Shown here: piece after piece, positions 479 to 9,644 of the stretch
Layout: each line of letters begins with the position of its first letter
How positions within the stretch are numbered: the first letter of the stretch is position 1
DNA from: Planctomycetaceae bacterium
GTDB lineage: Bacteria; Planctomycetota; Planctomycetia; Planctomycetales; Planctomycetaceae
Assembly: GCA_002724415.1 (NCBI GenBank)
Contig: PBOU01000188.1
Span: forward strand, 1-45,125
DNA: 45,125 bases
Direction of reading: 5' to 3'
Notes under the pieces: model-generated
What the model was told of the DNA's origin: nothing
Database searches by the model: none
Seen by the model: only the letters and a program-made list of their open reading frames with translations
Translations under genes and position numbers: made by a program

Positions 479-2521
479 GTGGACAACTCGTCTCGTTTGG
501 ATCCAAGGCATCTGCTACCGTTCCGGCCCGCATTCTCAATGGTCGGGTCTGCCATGGAATTCACTCCCAAGTCGTCCCCACTCAAAGCGGCCATTCTTCC
601 GCTGGTCTGTTCGTTGATGGCCCTCGTGGTCCTGGGCGCCTGGGTGGGGGGACTGCTTCCCCTGGAGATTGGTCGTGGCACGGTCGTAGGACCAGGGGGA
701 GGTGTGGACGATCGCCCAACTGTTGAGCGGCTGGTTCTCCGGGATTCGACGGGGGCTTTGCACCAGGTTGGTGGAGTGTCACAGTCGTCGGCGACCGTCG
801 TGGTGTATCTCTCCTCGACCTGTCCGATCAGTCGCGGATTCCTGCCGGCGATTGAACGGTTGCACCGGGCAGCGGCACGACGCGACGTGCGGGTGCTGGC
901 GATCCAGGTCGATCAGGCTGTCTCGCTGGCTTCTGAGTTCGAGATCAGTTTTCCGGTGTTTTCCGAGCAGGAACAGACGCCCAACACGTTGCTCCGCAAA
1001 CAACTCAAGCCCACGCATGTCCCCGAAGCATTCGTGATCGATGCAACTGGTCGTTTGAGTTACCGTGGCCGGATTGACGATCGTTTCATCGACCTGGGGC
1101 GTCGTCGGGCCGCCGTGAGCAGCCGCGATCTGGGCCGGGCCATTGACCGGGTTCTGGCCGGCCGAGCGAGCCGACTCGAACGAACCACCCCGGTCGGGTG
1201 CGTCCTGGAACCATTACGCGCGCCCCCAAAGCGTGGCGTCTCGAAACAGGTGAAATCGACCGGCGAGATCACGTGGGCCGGCACGGTCGCGAACCTGGTG
1301 CATCGTCGTTGTGGGCGTTGTCACCGTCCGGACACCGCGGCTCCCTTTTCACTTCTGTCGTACCAGGACGTGGTTGGTCGCCGTCGGCAGTTGCTCGAGG
1401 TCGTGACCCGCAGGATCATGCCTCCCTGGAAGCCTCGCCCTGGTTTCGGCCATTTTCAGGACGACCTGCGGCTGAGCGACGAGGAGTTGTCGCTGTTGCG
1501 AGACTGGCTGGAATCGGACTTGCCGCGGGGTGATGTCGCCAGCGAACCGGAAGTTCCCCGGTATGCAGGTGGCTGGGAACTGGGCCGTCCCGATCTGGTG
1601 TTGACGATGCCCGAGCGTGTTTCGATCCCTGCCGAGGGACGCGACCTCTACTGGTATTTCGTGATTCCGAGCGGGTTGAAAACGGACCGGATGATCTCGG
1701 CAATCGAATTTCGACCGGGCAATTCTCGGGTGATCCACCATGCCAGTTTTCGTTACGACGACACGGGCACAGCCCGGCGACTGGATGCGGCCGATCCACG
1801 GCCCGGATACCGCCGTTACGGTGGCTGGGGATTCGGTGGTGGTGGGACGCTGGGAGGCTGGGCGGTCGGTGTACAACCACGACACCTGGGCCCGGGGCTG
1901 GGGCGTCCCATAAAGGCGGGCTCGGACTTTGTCCTCCAGGTGCATTACCATCCCAGCGGCCGGCCCGAGGCCGACCAGTCTCGATTGGGATTGTACTTCG
2001 TGCCGGAGGCGACCGGGACGTCCGAATCCATCACGCCGGTGGTCGAGATTCTCGTGGGAGAGATGTCGCTGGAGATTCCCGCCGGCGAGCCGAATCTGCA
2101 TCATCCGGCGGTGTACACCCTGCCGGTGCCCGTCACGGTCCATTCGGTGTTGCCGCACATGCACTTGCTGGGCCGTCGCTGCCGGGCATGGGCGGAAACG
2201 CCCGCGGGCCAACAGGTGCCGCTGGTTGCGATTGACGAGTGGGATTTTCACTGGCATTCCCAGTACCACCTGGAACAGCCCTTGCGGCTTCCCGCCGGCA
2301 CCCGGTTGATTCATGAGGCGTGGTATGACAACAGTGTGGCGAATCCGTTCAACCCACATTCGCCTCCCCGCCACGTCACCTGGGGAGAGGGGACCGACCA
2401 GGAAATGGGGTTGCTGTTCCTGGATGTCACGACCGATTCGCCAACCGATCGCCGACGGTTGATCCAGCACAACCAGGGACACTTCCTCGATCAGTTCCGC
2501 CGGTTGACTGGCGGGCGATGA
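479..2521 (+). CDS. Secreted fusion: thioredoxin-like + heme c + copper type II monooxygenase-like protein
   Basis: The product has 680 residues. The N-terminus carries a hydrophobic segment (AAILPLVCSLMALVVLGAWV), a signal peptide or anchor, so the protein faces the periplasm. Residues ~85-230 look like a redoxin (VVVYLSSTCPISRGF), but only one Cys is present where thioredoxins have two. A heme c motif C-G-R-C-H begins at residue 278. The rest contains His motifs of copper type II ascorbate-dependent (DBH/PHM-like) monooxygenases: IHHASF, HYHPSG, HMHLLG and HWHSQYH. The start is uncertain: GTG 479, ATG 539 and ATG 554 all keep the hydrophobic segment. Substrate unknown. This domain combination recurs in planctomycetes. 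It converges on the dsbD-like gene across a 48-bp gap. Confidence 0.82.
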   Translation: MDNSSRLDPRHLLPFRPAFSMVGSAMEFTPKSSPLKAAILPLVCSLMALVVLGAWVGGLLPLEIGRGTVVGPGGGVDDRPTVERLVLRDSTGALHQVGGVSQSSATVVVYLSSTCPISRGFLPAIERLHRAAARRDVRVLAIQVDQAVSLASEFEISFPVFSEQEQTPNTLLRKQLKPTHVPEAFVIDATGRLSYRGRIDDRFIDLGRRRAAVSSRDLGRAIDRVLAGRASRLERTTPVGCVLEPLRAPPKRGVSKQVKSTGEITWAGTVANLVHRRCGRCHRPDTAAPFSLLSYQDVVGRRRQLLEVVTRRIMPPWKPRPGFGHFQDDLRLSDEELSLLRDWLESDLPRGDVASEPEVPRYAGGWELGRPDLVLTMPERVSIPAEGRDLYWYFVIPSGLKTDRMISAIEFRPGNSRVIHHASFRYDDTGTARRLDAADPRPGYRRYGGWGFGGGGTLGGWAVGVQPRHLGPGLGRPIKAGSDFVLQVHYHPSGRPEADQSRLGLYFVPEATGTSESITPVVEILVGEMSLEIPAGEPNLHHPAVYTLPVPVTVHSVLPHMHLLGRRCRAWAETPAGQQVPLVAIDEWDFHWHSQYHLEQPLRLPAGTRLIHEAWYDNSVANPFNPHSPPRHVTWGEGTDQEMGLLFLDVTTDSPTDRRRLIQHNQGHFLDQFRRLTGGR

Positions 2522-2524
2522 TCG

Positions 2525-2542
2525 ATGTCCGGTGCAGGACAT
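2525..2542. repeat. Inverted repeat between convergent genes (possible weak terminator)
   Basis: ATGTCC, six-base loop GGTGCA, then GGACAT form a perfect 6-bp stem in the 48-bp gap between two convergent genes. No T-run follows on either strand, so it is at most a weak or Rho-assisted terminator. Confidence 0.3.
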
Positions 2543-2569
2543 GGGGTGATCGTGTGCCGAGGAATTCCG

Positions 2570-4939
2570 CTAGAGCGAATCCTGGTTTTTCGCGTCGGAG
2601 CGAGAAACCGCCGCGGTCGATGATTTGCCGACGGCGCGTTTGAGCGCCTCAAGAACGCGGTCCGGAGATGCGAAGACACCGTCGAGCACAATCGGCTTGT
2701 CGGGTTGTCCAGCCGGATAAATGGCATAAAACGGAATCGCTTTGGCCGGGTTGCCGAGTTTGACCAGCAGGGCGTCGATATCGGGCGACTCTCGCGTCTT
2801 GTCGGCCTTGATGGCGACAATCTTGTTGCTGGTGATGAATTCGCGTGTGACTTCTGCGTCCAAGGCGACCGCCTCGTTGAGCTTGCAGGTGATTCACCAG
2901 TCGGCGGTGAAATCGATCAGGACCGTCTGGTTGGCGTCGAGATGTTCGGCAAGAGCCTCGTCGGAGTACGGGCTCCAGAACCCATCGTCGGGATGGTAGA
3001 AAGAGCCGAAGGAGACCAGTCCCATCAGAACGCCGAACGCGACGGCCTCTCCCCAGGCCCGGGCCCGACGGATTCTCGGCTGGGTCAATGGCACCCGACC
3101 GATCCACCAGAAGGCGGCCCAGAGGGAGAACAGGAACAGCATCGTGGGGACGACGATATCGGGATCGACACCCGAGAGCACAAACATCGGGTAGATGACG
3201 GTGCCCAACAGAACGAATCCCATCACGTGCTTGAAGGTCTCCATCCACATGCCGGGCTTGGGCAGGAAGGCGATCAGCCTGGGGAAAGCCCCGATCAAAA
3301 TGTAGGGAAATGCCATGCCCAGTCCGACACTCATCATGACGGCATAAGTGACCCCGATGGACTGGCTGACAGCCCAACTCATGGCCGGCACCAGCATCGG
3401 GCCGGTGCACGGTGTGGCCAGGATGGTGGTCAGGACACCCTTGGCGAAGGCGGCCCCGAGTCCCTCCTGCCCAGAGCTGTCCCCCGAACCACCGAAGCCG
3501 GGAACGGGGATTTCCCAGACACCCAGAAAACTCAATGCGAACACAAAGACGATGGAGGCCATCACGATGTTGAAGGCGGCACTGGTGAATTGTGATCCCC
3601 AACCGGCTCCGATCACTCCAACAAGCGTGGCCAACACCAGGAAGACGCTCATCAAGCCGAAAGCGAAGGACAGGTTCAGCAGAAAGGCCCGGCTACGGTT
3701 CTCACCGGCCTGGGTCACGAAGGACATGATTTTCAGGCCGATCACCGGCAGCACGCACGGCATGAAGTTCAGGATGAACCCGGCCACGAAAGCGATTCCA
3801 ATCCAACTCAACATGTTTTCCGAGTTGTCCGGTGATGCCGCGGTCACCTGGCCGGCGTCGTCATCGGTCGACGCGTTTTGCGAGCGGTCACTGGAGAGCT
3901 TGTCACCGGGGCCGACCTGTCCGAGGGCGAACGAGACGCGCCCTTTCAGGCAGCCCTTTTCGTCGCAGTACTGGTAGAGGACCTGTCCCCGTGTTCCGTA
4001 GCCCGAGTCGGTTGCGGCCTCGGTCACACGGTAGGTGCGGCTCCATGTCACCGTGCCATGGAACAGTTTTTGCGTCACGGCGCCGGTGGGCAACTGAATC
4101 GCTTTCTCTTCGAACGGCCGATCTTCGGCGAAACCGGCGTCGATGGCCGTGAGTCCGCGGAGACCCTTCATGGAAATGCGCGTGGGCAGGCCACCGTTGG
4201 CCTTGTCCTGGGTGAGAGCAAAGATGTGGAATCCATCGGTGAGGGTGGCTGTCAGTGACAGCGTGACGGTCTCGCCGGGCTGTGCCATTGGGGGGGACAA
4301 TTCGATGTGCCAGGTCACCGGGGAGGGGTGTTCACCGCCTCCGGTTTTTTCCGTTGGTGTGATGTCCAGGGTCAGCGGGTGCGAGTCGCTGGCGGCTTCG
4401 CCGGGGAATGCCGGTCCCTGCCCGAGGGCCACTGCCAGCGGAAAGGTTTCCGGTGGCAGGCAACCGCTTTCATTGCACATGCTCAGCGTGATGGAACCAC
4501 TGACGGTCGCCTTTGCATCGGCGGCCCGTTTGAAGACCTGCCGCCAAACGACGCGGCCGATGTGTTTCTCCTGGCGGAAATCGACCTTGCCGATCTTTGT
4601 GACCTCGACCTTGGGAGGATGGTCGGGTTGGGGGGCCGAGGTGGGAGCGTCCAGCCCGGCGTGGTCGGTGATCTTGATGGCTGTCGAATTGGGCTCGTCA
4701 CCAATCGAATAGGTGTAATACCCCTCGGGGACGATCACCTCGATGGCCAGTGTCACCGGGTCACCTGGCTTGGCCGTTGCCGGGTGCAGCGATGCGGTGA
4801 TTTTTGGTTCGGCGTTTGTCGTGGGGCCGTCACCCAGGTCTCCGAACGGCTGGAACAACTCGGGCCCGGTTGGCTGGTCCTGGGACCACGCCGGGGTGAC
4901 GACCAGCAAGAGTATGAGACAGGTCAGCCAGCGTGTCAT
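2570..4939 (-). CDS. dsbD: DsbD-like thiol:disulfide interchange protein, predicted selenoprotein (in-frame UGA read as Sec)
   Basis: Reading through one UGA (2896-2894) gives 789 residues. A signal peptide (residues 1-19) precedes two DsbD-alpha-like domains with Cys pairs C155/C160 (CNESGC) and C325/C330 (CDEKGC). A polytopic DsbD/CcdA membrane domain follows, with its two conserved Cys in NFMPCVLP (C395) and LATPCTGP (C511). The C-terminal thioredoxin domain begins DFTADW-U-ITCKLNE, so Sec682 takes the place of the first Cys and Cys685 is kept. The frame then runs 107 codons to TAG at 2570. DsbD moves electrons from cytoplasmic thioredoxin to periplasmic partners, including cytochrome c maturation; three heme c proteins are encoded nearby. 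Stopping at UGA would remove the whole thioredoxin domain. Start ATG 4939 gives a good signal peptide but has a weak ribosome binding site. Confidence 0.85.
2861..2876 (-). promoter_or_regulatory. Candidate bacterial SECIS hairpin of dsbD
   Basis: In the mRNA, CGAGGC - GGUC - GCCUUG forms a 6-bp stem (one G-U pair) with a four-base GGUC apical loop lying 24-27 nt after the UGA. Outer pairing of UGC with GCA could extend the stem across an internal loop. A G within the first two loop bases, at about this spacing, is the known requirement for SelB-binding bacterial SECIS elements; the Escherichia coli fdhF element also carries GGUC. Confidence 0.75.
2894..2896 (-). other. Predicted selenocysteine UGA codon (Sec682) in dsbD
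   Basis: The codon order is GAC TGG TGA ATC ACC TGC AAG, giving D-W-U-I-T-C-K. DsbD homologues have W-C-x-T-C-K at this site, so UGA replaces the catalytic first Cys. The frame upstream and downstream is one continuous DsbD homologue without a shift. Confidence 0.8.
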
Positions 4940-5076
4940 CGTGTCACGTTCTTTCGTTGGGCGAACACATTGCTGGCCGCATCTTAGTTCATTGGAAACG
5001 ACGCTGGCAATTGGCCAAACGGGTCATCCGTGGCACACTGTCTAGTAGAAGTTCGTGCGTCGTCGAAGAATCACAC

Positions 5077-6327
5077 GTGTTCCGATTGTCCCTGGTCCTG
5101 TTTGTCCTGCCTGCGGCGTCGTTGGCCGCCCAGCCGCGGGTTGTCGCCTATGACGATCCGTTGCCCTACGGGCAGTCTCCGGTTGATTACCTGGGTGACG
5201 CGACTGCCGATCCTGTTGCGAGGTTGGATGCCCGGTTGGCCAGTGGCAAGACAACTCTGCGGGTCGTGCCGCGGCGCGGCTATCTCGACTCGGTTCTCGG
5301 TTGCCTGGATGTGCCGGTGTCTTCGCAGTTGCTGGTGTATTCCAAGACCGCGGTCAATCAACGCCTGGTCACGCCAAAGACGCCTCGAGCCATCTACTTC
5401 AACGACGAGGTGTCGGTTGCGTGGGTTCCCGGGACTGCCGAACTGGAACTCATGGCGTTCGATCCACTCAAGGGCGCGATGTTCTACGTGCTACAGCAGC
5501 CAGATGGGGCCGCAGGGGCACGGCCGAGGTTTCATCGGAAGTCGAGTTGCCTGGCGTGCCACATCGGCCGCACGACACTCTCGGTTCCCGGCGGCATCAT
5601 TCGTTCATTTCTGGTCGAATTGACCGGCAAGCCACTCGAGGGGTACTCGCGGGTGTCCGGTACGACGCCGATCGCCAACCGTTGGGGTGGCTGGTATGTC
5701 ACCGGTCGTTTGGGGCGTGTGACTCACATGGGCAACCTGGTCAACCGTGAGGAGAACCGTCGCCACCGTCGGGAGGCGTCTTTCCGAGCCAGTCTCGATC
5801 GGCTCGATTCCCTGGTTGATCTCACCGGTTACCCTGCCCCCCACAGTGATGTGGTCGCTCATCTCGTGCTTGACCATCGGCTCCATGGGCAGAATCTCAT
5901 CTCGCGTGTGACCTACGAGCATCGCCTGGGACGCCGTTCTGATGCCGAGGACCGGTTGTTGCGATACTTGCTGTTGGTGGGCTCCCCTCGATGGGCCACG
6001 CCTGTCAGTGGCACCAGCGATTTTTCCAGATGGTTTCAGCGGCAGGGACCACGGACGGCCGACGGTCGGTCACTGCGTCAGTTGGATTTGGCCGGTCGAC
6101 TGTTTCGTTACTCGCTCAGCCACCTCGTCTATTCCCCCCAGTTGGCTGCTATGCCCGCGGCGCCGCGCGGGCGGCTGGGACGGAGGCTGCAGGCGGTGCT
6201 GACGGGGCGTCCTGCTGGTGGACTTGAGAAGTTGCTCACTCCTGGCCAACGTGCCGACCTGCGTGACATCCTGGTGGAGACACGGGAAGATCTGCCACCG
6301 GAGTGGCGAATGAGTGCAAAGCCGTGA
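5077..6327 (+). CDS. Secreted mono-heme c-type protein of unknown function
   Basis: The start is taken as GTG 5077 because it begins a clean signal peptide (VFRLSLVLFVLPAASLAAQ); the frame is open further upstream to 4933 but reads as non-signal sequence. The product has 416 residues. A single heme c motif C-L-A-C-H begins at residue 158, inside RKSSCLACHIGRTTLSVPGG. No second heme motif or known domain is recognised. It is divergent from dsbD (137-bp spacer) and ends 11 bp before the PVC-type heme protein, so the two are probably cotranscribed. A role in periplasmic electron transfer or peroxide handling is only a guess. Confidence 0.72.
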   Translation: MFRLSLVLFVLPAASLAAQPRVVAYDDPLPYGQSPVDYLGDATADPVARLDARLASGKTTLRVVPRRGYLDSVLGCLDVPVSSQLLVYSKTAVNQRLVTPKTPRAIYFNDEVSVAWVPGTAELELMAFDPLKGAMFYVLQQPDGAAGARPRFHRKSSCLACHIGRTTLSVPGGIIRSFLVELTGKPLEGYSRVSGTTPIANRWGGWYVTGRLGRVTHMGNLVNREENRRHRREASFRASLDRLDSLVDLTGYPAPHSDVVAHLVLDHRLHGQNLISRVTYEHRLGRRSDAEDRLLRYLLLVGSPRWATPVSGTSDFSRWFQRQGPRTADGRSLRQLDLAGRLFRYSLSHLVYSPQLAAMPAAPRGRLGRRLQAVLTGRPAGGLEKLLTPGQRADLRDILVETREDLPPEWRMSAKP

Positions 6328-6338
6328 GGGATGGGACA

Positions 6339-9300
6339 ATGAAAGAGGCGAGGAGGCGGTGGTCGTGGTTGGCCTGTGGGTGGATTGGACTGGTTGTTGC
6401 CGGGTCGGTCCACGCCTTCGAGGAGTCTCCCACGACGGCCTCGGGTGTTCGTGTTGCCGATGGATTCGAGGTGACGCTGTATGCCGACGACAACCTGGCC
6501 AGCAACATTTACTCGATGACGATTGATTCTCGGGGGCGCGTGGTCGTTGCCGGTCCGCGTTACGTGAAAATCCTTCATGATCGTGACGGGGACGGTCGGG
6601 CCGAATCGTTTTCGACATTCTCGGATGTTCCCACCGGTGGTGCCCAGGGGCTGTTCTTTGATGGCAATGATCTGTTGGCGACCGGTGACGGCGCGCTGTG
6701 GCGTTTGCGTGATGCCGACCGGGACAGTCGCGCTGATGGTCCGCCCGAGCGGATCTTGAAGATCCGTGCAGGGGGTGAACATGACGCGCACGCGATCCGA
6801 CGTGGTCCCGACGGCTGGTTCTACCTGTTGGCCGGAAACGGGGCCGGTGTGACTGCTGACTACGCGTCGTTGAAATCTTCGCCGATCCGGTCGCCATCGG
6901 CTGGCACGCTGCTGAGGTTGCCGCCGACATTGCAGGGGAGCGAGATCCTGGTCGACGGTTTTCGCAACGCCTACGATTTTGCTTTCAATGGCCAAGGCGA
7001 CATTTTCGTTTACGACAGCGATGGTGAGCGAGACGTGTCCTTGCCGTGGTACCGTCCCACTCGTGTGTTTCATGCGCTCCCGGCACATGGAGCCGGATGG
7101 TTCTCTCGCAGTTGGAAGCGTCCGGGCTACTTTCTTGACATGCCTCCGGTGGTGGGGGCATTCGGTCGTGGATCGCCCACGGGGGTTGCCTGTTACCGGC
7201 ACACGGGGTTTCCGGAACAGTATCGAGGCGTGGTTTTTGCCTGCGACTGGACTTTCGGACGCGTGATGGCGGTGTCCCCTCCAGGACCGCGCATGTCGGG
7301 GTTGCCCGAACCGATCGAATTCATGACCGGCCGCGGGCATTTTGGGTTTGCTCCGACCGATATCGCCATCGGGCCCGACGGATCACTCTTCGTGGCGGTG
7401 GGGGGGCGTGGGACTCGCGGCAGCGTGTACCGGGTCACTCACCCGGCTTCGACCCGGTCTTCCCTTCCGCGTCGTGAAACCCCGATGGGGACGTGCCTGG
7501 GAGCGGCACAGCCGTTGGCGAGTTGGTCGCGATCGCGGTGGTTGCCGCTGGCAAGGAAACTGGGGGCGGCGGCATTTCATGCGGTGATTCTGGATGCGGA
7601 GTACACGGTGCCCCGTCGTGTTCGGGCGGTCGAGATCCTGGTCGACTTGTTTGGAGGCCCGGAGTTTGTGGAACTGGAAAAACAACTCGATGGTCTTCCG
7701 GCGGCCGTGCGGTCCCGGCTGGCGTGGGCGGTGGGGCGTGGACGACCCACCCATCCCGACGCCAGGCTCTTGAGCCGATTTCTGGCCGACGAGGATCCTC
7801 GAGTGGGCCGTGCGGCGTGCGAGGCCTTGCTGGGGATTTCAGGCCGCTGGGACTGGGACACCGTGGAATCGGGATTGTTGACCCAGTTGGACAGTCCCGA
7901 CCGCCGGACCCGGCAGGCTGCCGCATCGGTGGTGGCGCGTATGCCCGAGGCGGCCTGGCGACGGATCCGGAGTGAAGTGAGCCGACGGTCACCACGGGCG
8001 CGGGTGGCTGTCGCCCAGGGCGGTCGAGCGCATGTCCAGGGAGTTGATCGAGACGCGTTGTCCGTGGCACTGGAGGTGTTGACCACCAAGAACTCGCAAC
8101 AGGTCTCAGAGGGGCTCAAGCTCGATGCGGCTCGCCTGGCGCAGTTGGCACTGGGAGATGTGGGGCCGGTGCGAGGCCGTGCGGCAGTCTTCGACGGTTA
8201 TGGCGCGTTGCTGTCTCCCGCGGCACTCAGCCCGGTGGCGGGCGAGGTCAGCCGGGTGATCGATTCGGTGTTTCCCAGTGGCAGTCGCGAACTGGATGAC
8301 GAGTTGGCCCGGGTGACGGCGATGATCGCCTCGGCCGAACCACGGCTGTTGGCCAAGTTCCTCGCGAGCCCGGACCCGCGGTCTCACCCGGTGACAGATT
8401 TGCACCTCCTGATCACAGCCGCGCGGATCCCCCTGGCCAGGACCAGCGTTCAACGCGAGCAAACCGCCAGGATCCTTGTGGGACTGCAGGCGAAGATCGA
8501 CCGCGGTGGGTTGAACCAGGACAGCAACTGGGACGATCGCGTGGGTGAGTTGTACGTTGCCTTGTGCGAGAATGATCCCCGGTTGCCACGAGCTGTGCTC
8601 GAGACGCCCGGATTTGGTCTTCCGTCTCATGTGTTGTTTCTCGGCCGGATGTCCCGGCAGGATCGGGCACGGGCGCGGGAAGCATTCGTGGTGGCGATAC
8701 GCAAGGCGGGCGAGGACTACCCGTGGACGGGCGAGGTCGTCCGCTTGCTGGGTGAATCGGTGGATCCGAAGAGTGTCGACCTGTTGAGATCGGTCCACGA
8801 CCGGGCCGATGTCCGAGGGGCGGTTGTTGTGGAATTGGCTCGTCGTGCCACGGCCGTCGATCGCCAGCGATTTGTCAACGGCCTGGAGTCGTCGTCCCTT
8901 GAAGTTGTGGGGGCGAGCCTGTCCGCGTTGGCCAAGTTGCCGGCCGAGGTGACAGGGGAGGAGCAACTGGCACTGCTGGGAGTGGTGCGGCGGATGGGGG
9001 CAACTGCCCAGGAACATGGCCTGCGGTCCCGGGCCGTGATGTTGTTGCGTCGAAATACCGGGCGCCGGTTCGGTTTTGTGACCGGCAAGACGGGACGAAG
9101 GGCCCAGCAGAAGGCGGTCGCGGCCTGGACGGAGCACCTGGAGGCCAAGTATCCCGGTGAGGCGAGGAAATTGCTGGGGGCAGCGGCAGCGAGCCTGTCC
9201 GGCTTGAAGCGGCAACTGGAGGCAATTGACTGGGCCAGGGGTGATGTGACGCGGGGCAAGCGGATCTTCGCCAAACGCGGGTGCGTCCAATGTCACCAGG

Positions 9301-9644
9301 GGCGGCGGGCACTGGGGCCGGACCTGGCCGGTTCGGCAGGCCGGTTTTCCCGAGTCGACCTGTTCACCGCCATCGTGCTGCCCAGCAGGGATGTGTCACC
9401 CCGGTACCAGACCACGGTGGTCCAAACCGATTCCGGACAGGTGTACAGCGGGCTGATTGTCTACCAGTCGGTTGATGGTGTCACGCTGCGGACCGGAACC
9501 AATCGGACGATCCGGTTGGAACGCGGCGAGATTGAATTCCAGTCTCGCCGGTCCGAGTCGTTGATGCCGATGGGATTGCTCAAGGGGCTGGAAGATTCCG
9601 GATATGCCGACTTGTATGCCTATTTGGCGTCGTTGCGCAAGTAG
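6339..9644 (+). CDS. PVC-type heme-binding protein (beta-propeller, HEAT-like repeats, C-terminal cytochrome c)
   Basis: Start ATG 6339 gives a signal peptide (KEARRRWSWLACGWIGLVVA) and follows the upstream stop by 11 bp; a GTG at 6303 is in frame but overlaps the previous gene. The product has 1101 residues. Residues ~35-375 form a membrane-bound-dehydrogenase-like beta-propeller with repeated blades such as GPDGWFYLL and GPDGSLFVAV. About 500 residues of HEAT-like alpha-helical repeats follow. The last ~130 residues are the planctomycete/verrucomicrobial heme-binding domain, with C-V-Q-C-H from residue 982 and a Met-rich SLMPMG near the end as a possible axial ligand. Such proteins are exported and abundant in planctomycetes; the substrate, perhaps sugar or alcohol, is unknown. 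Confidence 0.86.
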   Translation: MKEARRRWSWLACGWIGLVVAGSVHAFEESPTTASGVRVADGFEVTLYADDNLASNIYSMTIDSRGRVVVAGPRYVKILHDRDGDGRAESFSTFSDVPTGGAQGLFFDGNDLLATGDGALWRLRDADRDSRADGPPERILKIRAGGEHDAHAIRRGPDGWFYLLAGNGAGVTADYASLKSSPIRSPSAGTLLRLPPTLQGSEILVDGFRNAYDFAFNGQGDIFVYDSDGERDVSLPWYRPTRVFHALPAHGAGWFSRSWKRPGYFLDMPPVVGAFGRGSPTGVACYRHTGFPEQYRGVVFACDWTFGRVMAVSPPGPRMSGLPEPIEFMTGRGHFGFAPTDIAIGPDGSLFVAVGGRGTRGSVYRVTHPASTRSSLPRRETPMGTCLGAAQPLASWSRSRWLPLARKLGAAAFHAVILDAEYTVPRRVRAVEILVDLFGGPEFVELEKQLDGLPAAVRSRLAWAVGRGRPTHPDARLLSRFLADEDPRVGRAACEALLGISGRWDWDTVESGLLTQLDSPDRRTRQAAASVVARMPEAAWRRIRSEVSRRSPRARVAVAQGGRAHVQGVDRDALSVALEVLTTKNSQQVSEGLKLDAARLAQLALGDVGPVRGRAAVFDGYGALLSPAALSPVAGEVSRVIDSVFPSGSRELDDELARVTAMIASAEPRLLAKFLASPDPRSHPVTDLHLLITAARIPLARTSVQREQTARILVGLQAKIDRGGLNQDSNWDDRVGELYVALCENDPRLPRAVLETPGFGLPSHVLFLGRMSRQDRARAREAFVVAIRKAGEDYPWTGEVVRLLGESVDPKSVDLLRSVHDRADVRGAVVVELARRATAVDRQRFVNGLESSSLEVVGASLSALAKLPAEVTGEEQLALLGVVRRMGATAQEHGLRSRAVMLLRRNTGRRFGFVTGKTGRRAQQKAVAAWTEHLEAKYPGEARKLLGAAAASLSGLKRQLEAIDWARGDVTRGKRIFAKRGCVQCHQGRRALGPDLAGSAGRFSRVDLFTAIVLPSRDVSPRYQTTVVQTDSGQVYSGLIVYQSVDGVTLRTGTNRTIRLERGEIEFQSRRSESLMPMGLLKGLEDSGYADLYAYLASLRK

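Follow-up and report, generated by a model that had tools for sequence, protein, structure and literature searches.

A planctomycete DsbD homologue predicted to carry selenocysteine at the attacking position of its C-terminal thioredoxin-like domain

DsbD is the main source of reducing electrons for the bacterial periplasm. The dsbD frame of a marine Planctomycetaceae bacterium contains a UGA codon exactly where the first cysteine of the C-terminal CxxC motif is expected, which raises the question of whether this codon ends the protein, is an error, has been reassigned, or is decoded as selenocysteine (Sec). The window analyzed here is a stretch of 45,125 nucleotides (contig PBOU01000188.1) from a draft metagenome-assembled genome (MAG) of 6.26 Mb in 228 contigs, estimated to be 94% complete. 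In our opinion, the DsbD encoded in the window is very probably a selenoprotein, with UGA decoded as Sec in place of the first, attacking Cys of the pair (U-x-x-C). A preliminary description made from the letters of the sequence had predicted as much, and the prediction is supported by the presence of the UGA in nine genomes, selection acting after the UGA, the genes selA, selB and selD, a selD that itself contains a UGA, a SECIS-like hairpin with frozen codons, and the co-occurrence of UGA-containing DsbDs with the Sec machinery.

The preliminary description had reported one DsbD frame broken solely by a UGA at 2896-2894 and followed by 107 codons; both the coordinates and the count proved right. 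The frame (4939-2570, minus strand) opens with ATG, ends in TAG, and encodes 789 residues when UGA is read as Sec; the TGA, at residue 682, is its sole internal stop. The context is IDFTADW-U-ITCKLNEAVAL, so that the UGA occupies the first Cys of the C-terminal W-C-x-x-C-K. A Cys aligns to this residue in solved DsbD C-terminal domains (6dnu), which bears out the identification of a DsbD homologue with UGA at the catalytic Cys. The second Cys, said to be kept, is indeed present as Cys 685 and is conserved in all UGA homologues, and a standard gene caller does end the gene at the UGA, as had been anticipated.

Pfam places DsbD_N at residues 55-165, DsbD_TM at 380-583 and Thioredoxin_7 at 655-743, all above cut-offs; the UGA is therefore inside the thioredoxin domain, at its first Cys. 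The protein contains the nDsbD domain, the 8-TM DsbD_TM domain and the thioredoxin-like C-terminal domain of a DsbD (PF11412, PF02683, PF13899), together with three reactive Cys pairs (CNESGC; FMPC/TPC; U-x-x-C, with Sec for one Cys). Compared with known DsbD (NF001419; PF11412 + PF02683 + thioredoxin-like C-terminus), it agrees in domain order, in the Cys pairs of nDsbD and of the membrane part, and in the C-terminal WCxxCK motif, but it has Sec for the first Cys of cDsbD and appears to contain two nDsbD-like repeats. A second C-x4-C motif, CDEKGC, sits in what looks like the second of these repeats, where Pfam gives no match. The score against NF001419, a model stricter than the domain definition, is 130.6 bits, under the cut-off of 330, and we therefore regard the protein as a divergent planctomycete DsbD. 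No second DsbD was found in the window's genome at E 1e-20. In some relatives (L041, L028), two tandem C-terminal thioredoxin domains follow DsbD_TM, and the other thioredoxin copy has lost both Cys (ADWNLLAK, ADWSNALK). Coordinates of the features are collected in Table 1.

Table 1. Features of the dsbD locus, in window coordinates
Feature	Positions	Strand	Basis or remark
dsbD coding frame, predicted selenoprotein DsbD	2570..4939	-	continuous frame with one TGA; Pfam domains
N-terminal periplasmic nDsbD domain (PF11412)	4445..4777	-	Pfam
nDsbD Cys pair C-N-E-S-G-C	4460-4477	-	read from sequence
Second C-x4-C motif CDEKGC	3950..3967	-	sequence
Transmembrane electron-transfer domain DsbD_TM (PF02683), two Cys (FMPCVLP, TPCTGP)	3191..3802	-	Pfam
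C-terminal thioredoxin-like domain cDsbD (Thioredoxin_7, PF13899)	2711..2977	-	Pfam; solved DsbD C-terminal domains align
In-frame UGA, predicted Sec 682, nucleophilic Cys position of CxxC	2894..2896	-	same codon in nine genomes
Cys 685, the resolving Cys of U-x-x-C, kept by every UGA homologue	2885..2887	-	alignment of homologues
Candidate bacterial SECIS hairpin CGAGGC-GGUC-GCCUUG	2861..2876	-	apical loop 23 nt after UGA; near-frozen codons
Convergent neighbor with a C-x-x-C-H haem-type motif and weak matches to a redoxin domain and to the Cu monooxygenase C-terminus	479..2521	+	conserved with dsbD
Divergent neighbor with C-x-x-C-H haem-type motif CLACH	4933..6327	+	adjoins dsbD in two sister genomes and G011

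The first line of evidence is the conservation of the UGA itself. Relatives were searched for DsbD with stops read through, and 85 of 119 genomes gave a DsbD. Neither TAA nor TAG occurs within any of the approximately 100 DsbD matches obtained in this way. TGA is present in the DsbD genes of six genomes from four genera of one family (the window's own, G000, and G001, G002, G011, G056 and G008), once per gene and invariably where the C-terminal CxxC has its first Cys; taken together, these two observations exclude chance. A seventh UGA-DsbD is found in record PBTE01000077 (NP69, L059), and scanning 392 of the phylum's genomes for a DNA pattern added two more, in G354 and G434, which belong to another planctomycete family and whose DsbD frames are complete, reading ADWULTCK. 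Thus, the same dsbD codon is UGA in nine genomes; seven of them lie in the window's family or close to it, and two in a second family.

The codons 3' of the UGA are under purifying selection, as are those upstream: between G000 and G002, dN/dS of dsbD is 0.10 after the UGA and 0.08 in the 260 codons before it. The tail of the gene is therefore not dead. A quick tree built from 119 DsbD proteins requires at least four changes between the Sec and Cys states, which indicates that the exchange occurred repeatedly. In G001, the dsbD match (G001:C276:52886-55491) is in two pieces separated by about 310 bases, whose open frames span 542 and 482 residues, and this suggests an insertion, a frameshift or an assembly fault. 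A further DsbD with UGA, in L093 (SXWA01000090), was set aside: its UGA is at the second Cys (C-L-T-U), and its genome has no selB above cut-off and no selC. Error, decay and an incomplete genome are candidate readings of this case.

The preliminary description had proposed a search of the genome for the four sel genes, and three of them are there. Adjoining selB and selA on contig C161 and selD on C59 all score above curated cut-offs. The selD gene (L023:6098-7153, plus strand) has a UGA at 6152, in ...SCAGUAGKL..., which is the Cys/Sec site of SelD and makes this gene a second selenoprotein candidate in the genome. Both selA and selB terminate in TGA, so TGA still serves as an ordinary stop here. 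The fourth gene, selC, was not found in the window's assembly, in which the best tRNA-Sec matches belong to ordinary tRNAs (Ser, Leu, Gly and others); a tRNA scan around selA/selB and around selD revealed no selC at either place. The sister species G002 does carry selC (75.5 bits, anticodon TCA), and in the sister G001 the homologous contig breaks off 17 nt inside the gene. The preliminary description had named the absence of selB/selC as grounds for refutation, but for this reason we read the missing selC as an assembly gap and not as a refutation; the selC region of G002 has no match whatsoever in G000. The Sec tRNA was detected in G002, G008, G011, G056, G354, G434 and NP69, the last of which also has selB.

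Among the genomes with a DsbD match, UGA-DsbD is present in 6 of 32 with Sec machinery (selB or a strong tRNA-Sec, counted by hand) and in 0 of 53 without it (Fisher p 0.002, or 0.015 when three congeners count once); the denominators of this comparison are loose, many of the 85 matches not including the thioredoxin domain.

Decoding of UGA as Sec would also call for a SECIS element. The bacterial SECIS (bSECIS) model specifies a loop of 3-9 nt with a G within its first two positions, a stem of 4-16 bp, a distance of 16-37 nt from the UGA and a minimum free energy of at most -7.5 (PMC13188914). The SECIS check suggested in the preliminary description came out well for the GGUC loop with its G, the 6-bp stem and the 23-nt spacing of the candidate dsbD hairpin; its energy is borderline, the isolated hairpin, at -7.4 kcal/mol, falling just short of the limit and reaching -11.9 in context. 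Since in-context folding is no better than that of shuffled sequences (z -0.40), energy alone proves nothing and is not used as evidence here. The codons that form the hairpin (AAC GAG GCG GTC GCC TTG) are identical in G000, G001, G002, G011 and G056, and in NP69 they differ at two third positions. For codons +6 to +11 of four distant genomes, 30 of 36 comparisons are identical, compared with a fraction of 0.42 in the remaining gene. No covariation was observed in the stem within the family, because the stem is invariant there. At the same place, G354 and G434 have a different hairpin of 7 bp (CGAGCGC-GUC-GCGCUCG in G354; loop GUG in G434). In a strict hairpin scan, eight of the nine UGA-DsbDs, all except that of G008, score -7.4 or better and 4 of 110 Cys homologues reach -7.5, a comparison that is descriptive since the rows are related by descent. 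The selD gene of the window's genome has its own hairpin, CCGCGCA-GGUCG-UGCGUGG, 32 nt after its UGA, so that a GGUC loop is common to both genes. The fdhF SECIS of E. coli likewise has a GGUC loop. A search of the dsbD region against Rfam returned nothing relevant; a single match was below threshold and due to chance.

How, then, do other explanations of the UGA fare? A true stop would leave a 681-residue DsbD devoid of the C-terminal catalytic pair, i.e., a pseudogene or a CcdA-like short form. The absence of selC from the window's MAG and the behavior of the standard gene caller agree with this, but purifying selection is as strong on the 107 codons after the UGA as on those before it, the resolving Cys and the thioredoxin fold are retained, the UGA is kept at one codon across nine genomes, and the truncated product would finish at the tryptophan that precedes the active site. 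We consider a true stop very improbable. Still less credence is due to a sequencing or assembly error in which the true codon is TGC or TGT. The sequence does come from a draft metagenome assembly in many contigs; however, the TGA is found in nine assemblies, including those of separate projects (Tara Red Sea, UBA, NP69), and the genomes concerned carry Sec machinery and a hairpin downstream of the codon. For the group of UGA-DsbD genomes, such an error is already refuted. Alternative genetic codes exist in some bacteria, and UGA could be reassigned to Trp, Gly or Cys, or be read through by a suppressor. The chances of this are likewise minimal: TGA ends selA and selB in this genome, the dsbD frame contains just one TGA and encodes Trp by TGG, homologues have Cys at position 682, and selA, selB and selD are present.

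The last alternative accepts a selenoprotein and concerns what Sec does in it: the exchange of Cys for Sec may be mainly neutral and revertible, with little catalytic benefit. The interchange of the two forms on the tree speaks for this, as does the fact that most relatives with selB retain a Cys DsbD. On the other hand, the use of Sec demands four dedicated genes as well as selenium, and the SECIS codons are maintained from one genus to another. A neutral exchange is, in our view, unlikely, if clearly less so than the three explanations above.

What was known of such proteins? The sole DsbD-related selenoprotein in the 2026 prokaryotic inventory is TsoB (PMC13188914), a rhodanese/DsbD fusion (NF045694) that has the membrane and thioredoxin regions in common with the window's protein. 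TsoB differs in having two Sec in UxxxxU and a rhodanese part, whereas the window's protein has one predicted Sec in UxxC and no rhodanese match, and scores 147.6 bits against the TsoB cut-off of 805. The same inventory has UxxC thioredoxins, DsbA-like and DsbG-like proteins and a PF13098 “thiol:disulfide interchange protein” (PMC13188914). In UxxC selenoproteins of the thioredoxin type, Sec replaces the N-terminal Cys of CxxC and the SECIS lies directly 3' (PMC13188914), and the same arrangement is predicted for the window's DsbD. However, the inventory UxxC proteins are separate thioredoxin-fold proteins of other Pfam families, whereas the domain described here is fused to the membrane transporter PF02683. 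Entries under PF02683 or PF13899 are absent from the 2026 inventory (PMC13188914), and DsbD is absent from a 2022 selenoprotein review. A study of seaweed planctomycetes reports that two isolates have selenoproteins and the complete Sec machinery; no Dsb protein is named in its main text. Sec-DsbD is therefore new relative to the 2022 and 2026 inventories; this statement covers the open-access literature, and the protein may have been named earlier elsewhere (in a subscription paper or in NCBI annotation). The protein family is known and so is the kind of change, a Cys-to-Sec exchange at a thioredoxin-fold site; what is new is the Sec form of this family, whose mechanism makes the exchange of interest.

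The pattern TADW/TANW-UGA-xx-Cys was found in 27 of 392 Planctomycetota genomes, compared with two matches for a reversed control pattern. The matches other than DsbD (L193-L208) are mostly thioredoxin-like proteins (ADWUGAC, ADWUPAC, TANWUGPC) that look like further UxxC selenoprotein families. In many of these genes the UGA is followed, at about 25 nt, by a strong hairpin whose loop is often AGUUG; four apparent chance matches have weak hairpins or none. With some reservation, we lean towards viewing Sec-DsbD as a new selenoprotein family with selenium at the attacking residue of a transmembrane conduit and more than one origin in Planctomycetota, a phylum whose UxxC thioredoxin-fold selenoproteins would extend well beyond DsbD.

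What the sequence itself shows is the conserved frame, the hairpin and the genes of the machinery; the mechanism outlined here would follow the E. coli protein. SelB and tRNA-Sec would decode the UGA, guided by the GGUC-loop hairpin. In E. coli, the membrane domain is reduced by thioredoxin and itself reduces cDsbD, which in turn reduces nDsbD, a hub for DsbC, DsbG and CcmG (PMC7347389). By analogy, cytoplasmic thioredoxin would pass electrons to the membrane Cys pair, then to the U/C pair of cDsbD, with Sec 682 acting as the attacking selenolate, and next to nDsbD with its Cys pair(s); from there they would reach periplasmic thioredoxin-like proteins, probably serving cytochrome c maturation and disulfide repair.

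The first Cys of E. coli cDsbD, which attacks, has a pKa of 10.6, which is set by Asp-455 and Glu-468 and exceeds all others reported for N-terminal CxxC cysteines in the thioredoxin family; a variant in which this Cys is more reactive reoxidises more readily and is ~75% functional in vivo (PMC3961690). The window's DsbD also has the acidic residues that raise the pKa in E. coli (PMC3961690), an Asp six before and a Glu seven after the Sec, at offsets equal to those in E. coli. Sec 682 is expected to be mostly ionised and a much stronger nucleophile than Cys; its cost or benefit is therefore a real question. The preliminary description had proposed that Sec speeds up the reduction of periplasmic partners, and it may do so. 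If the Sec reading is correct, Sec would alter the chemistry of the relay step most protected from side reactions, given that, within its class, no pKa exceeds that of the attacking Cys in E. coli. A natural Sec-DsbD would thus offer a direct test of why the attacking residue stays so unreactive, and of what selenium buys a periplasmic electron relay. It would also bring a membrane-protein family into the prokaryotic selenoproteome, one that gene callers cut at residue 681, with loss of the active site.

The surroundings of the gene point to a possible client. Two genes for C-x-x-C-H proteins flank dsbD, followed by a gene with a cytochrome c domain, and G011 and two sister genomes retain this block. 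Judging from these neighbors, the client is probably cytochrome c maturation. The wider block at 479-9644 of the window, conserved across genera, encodes the redoxin/CxxCH/Cu-monooxygenase-like protein, the CLACH protein, and a DUF7133/HEAT/cytochrome c protein.
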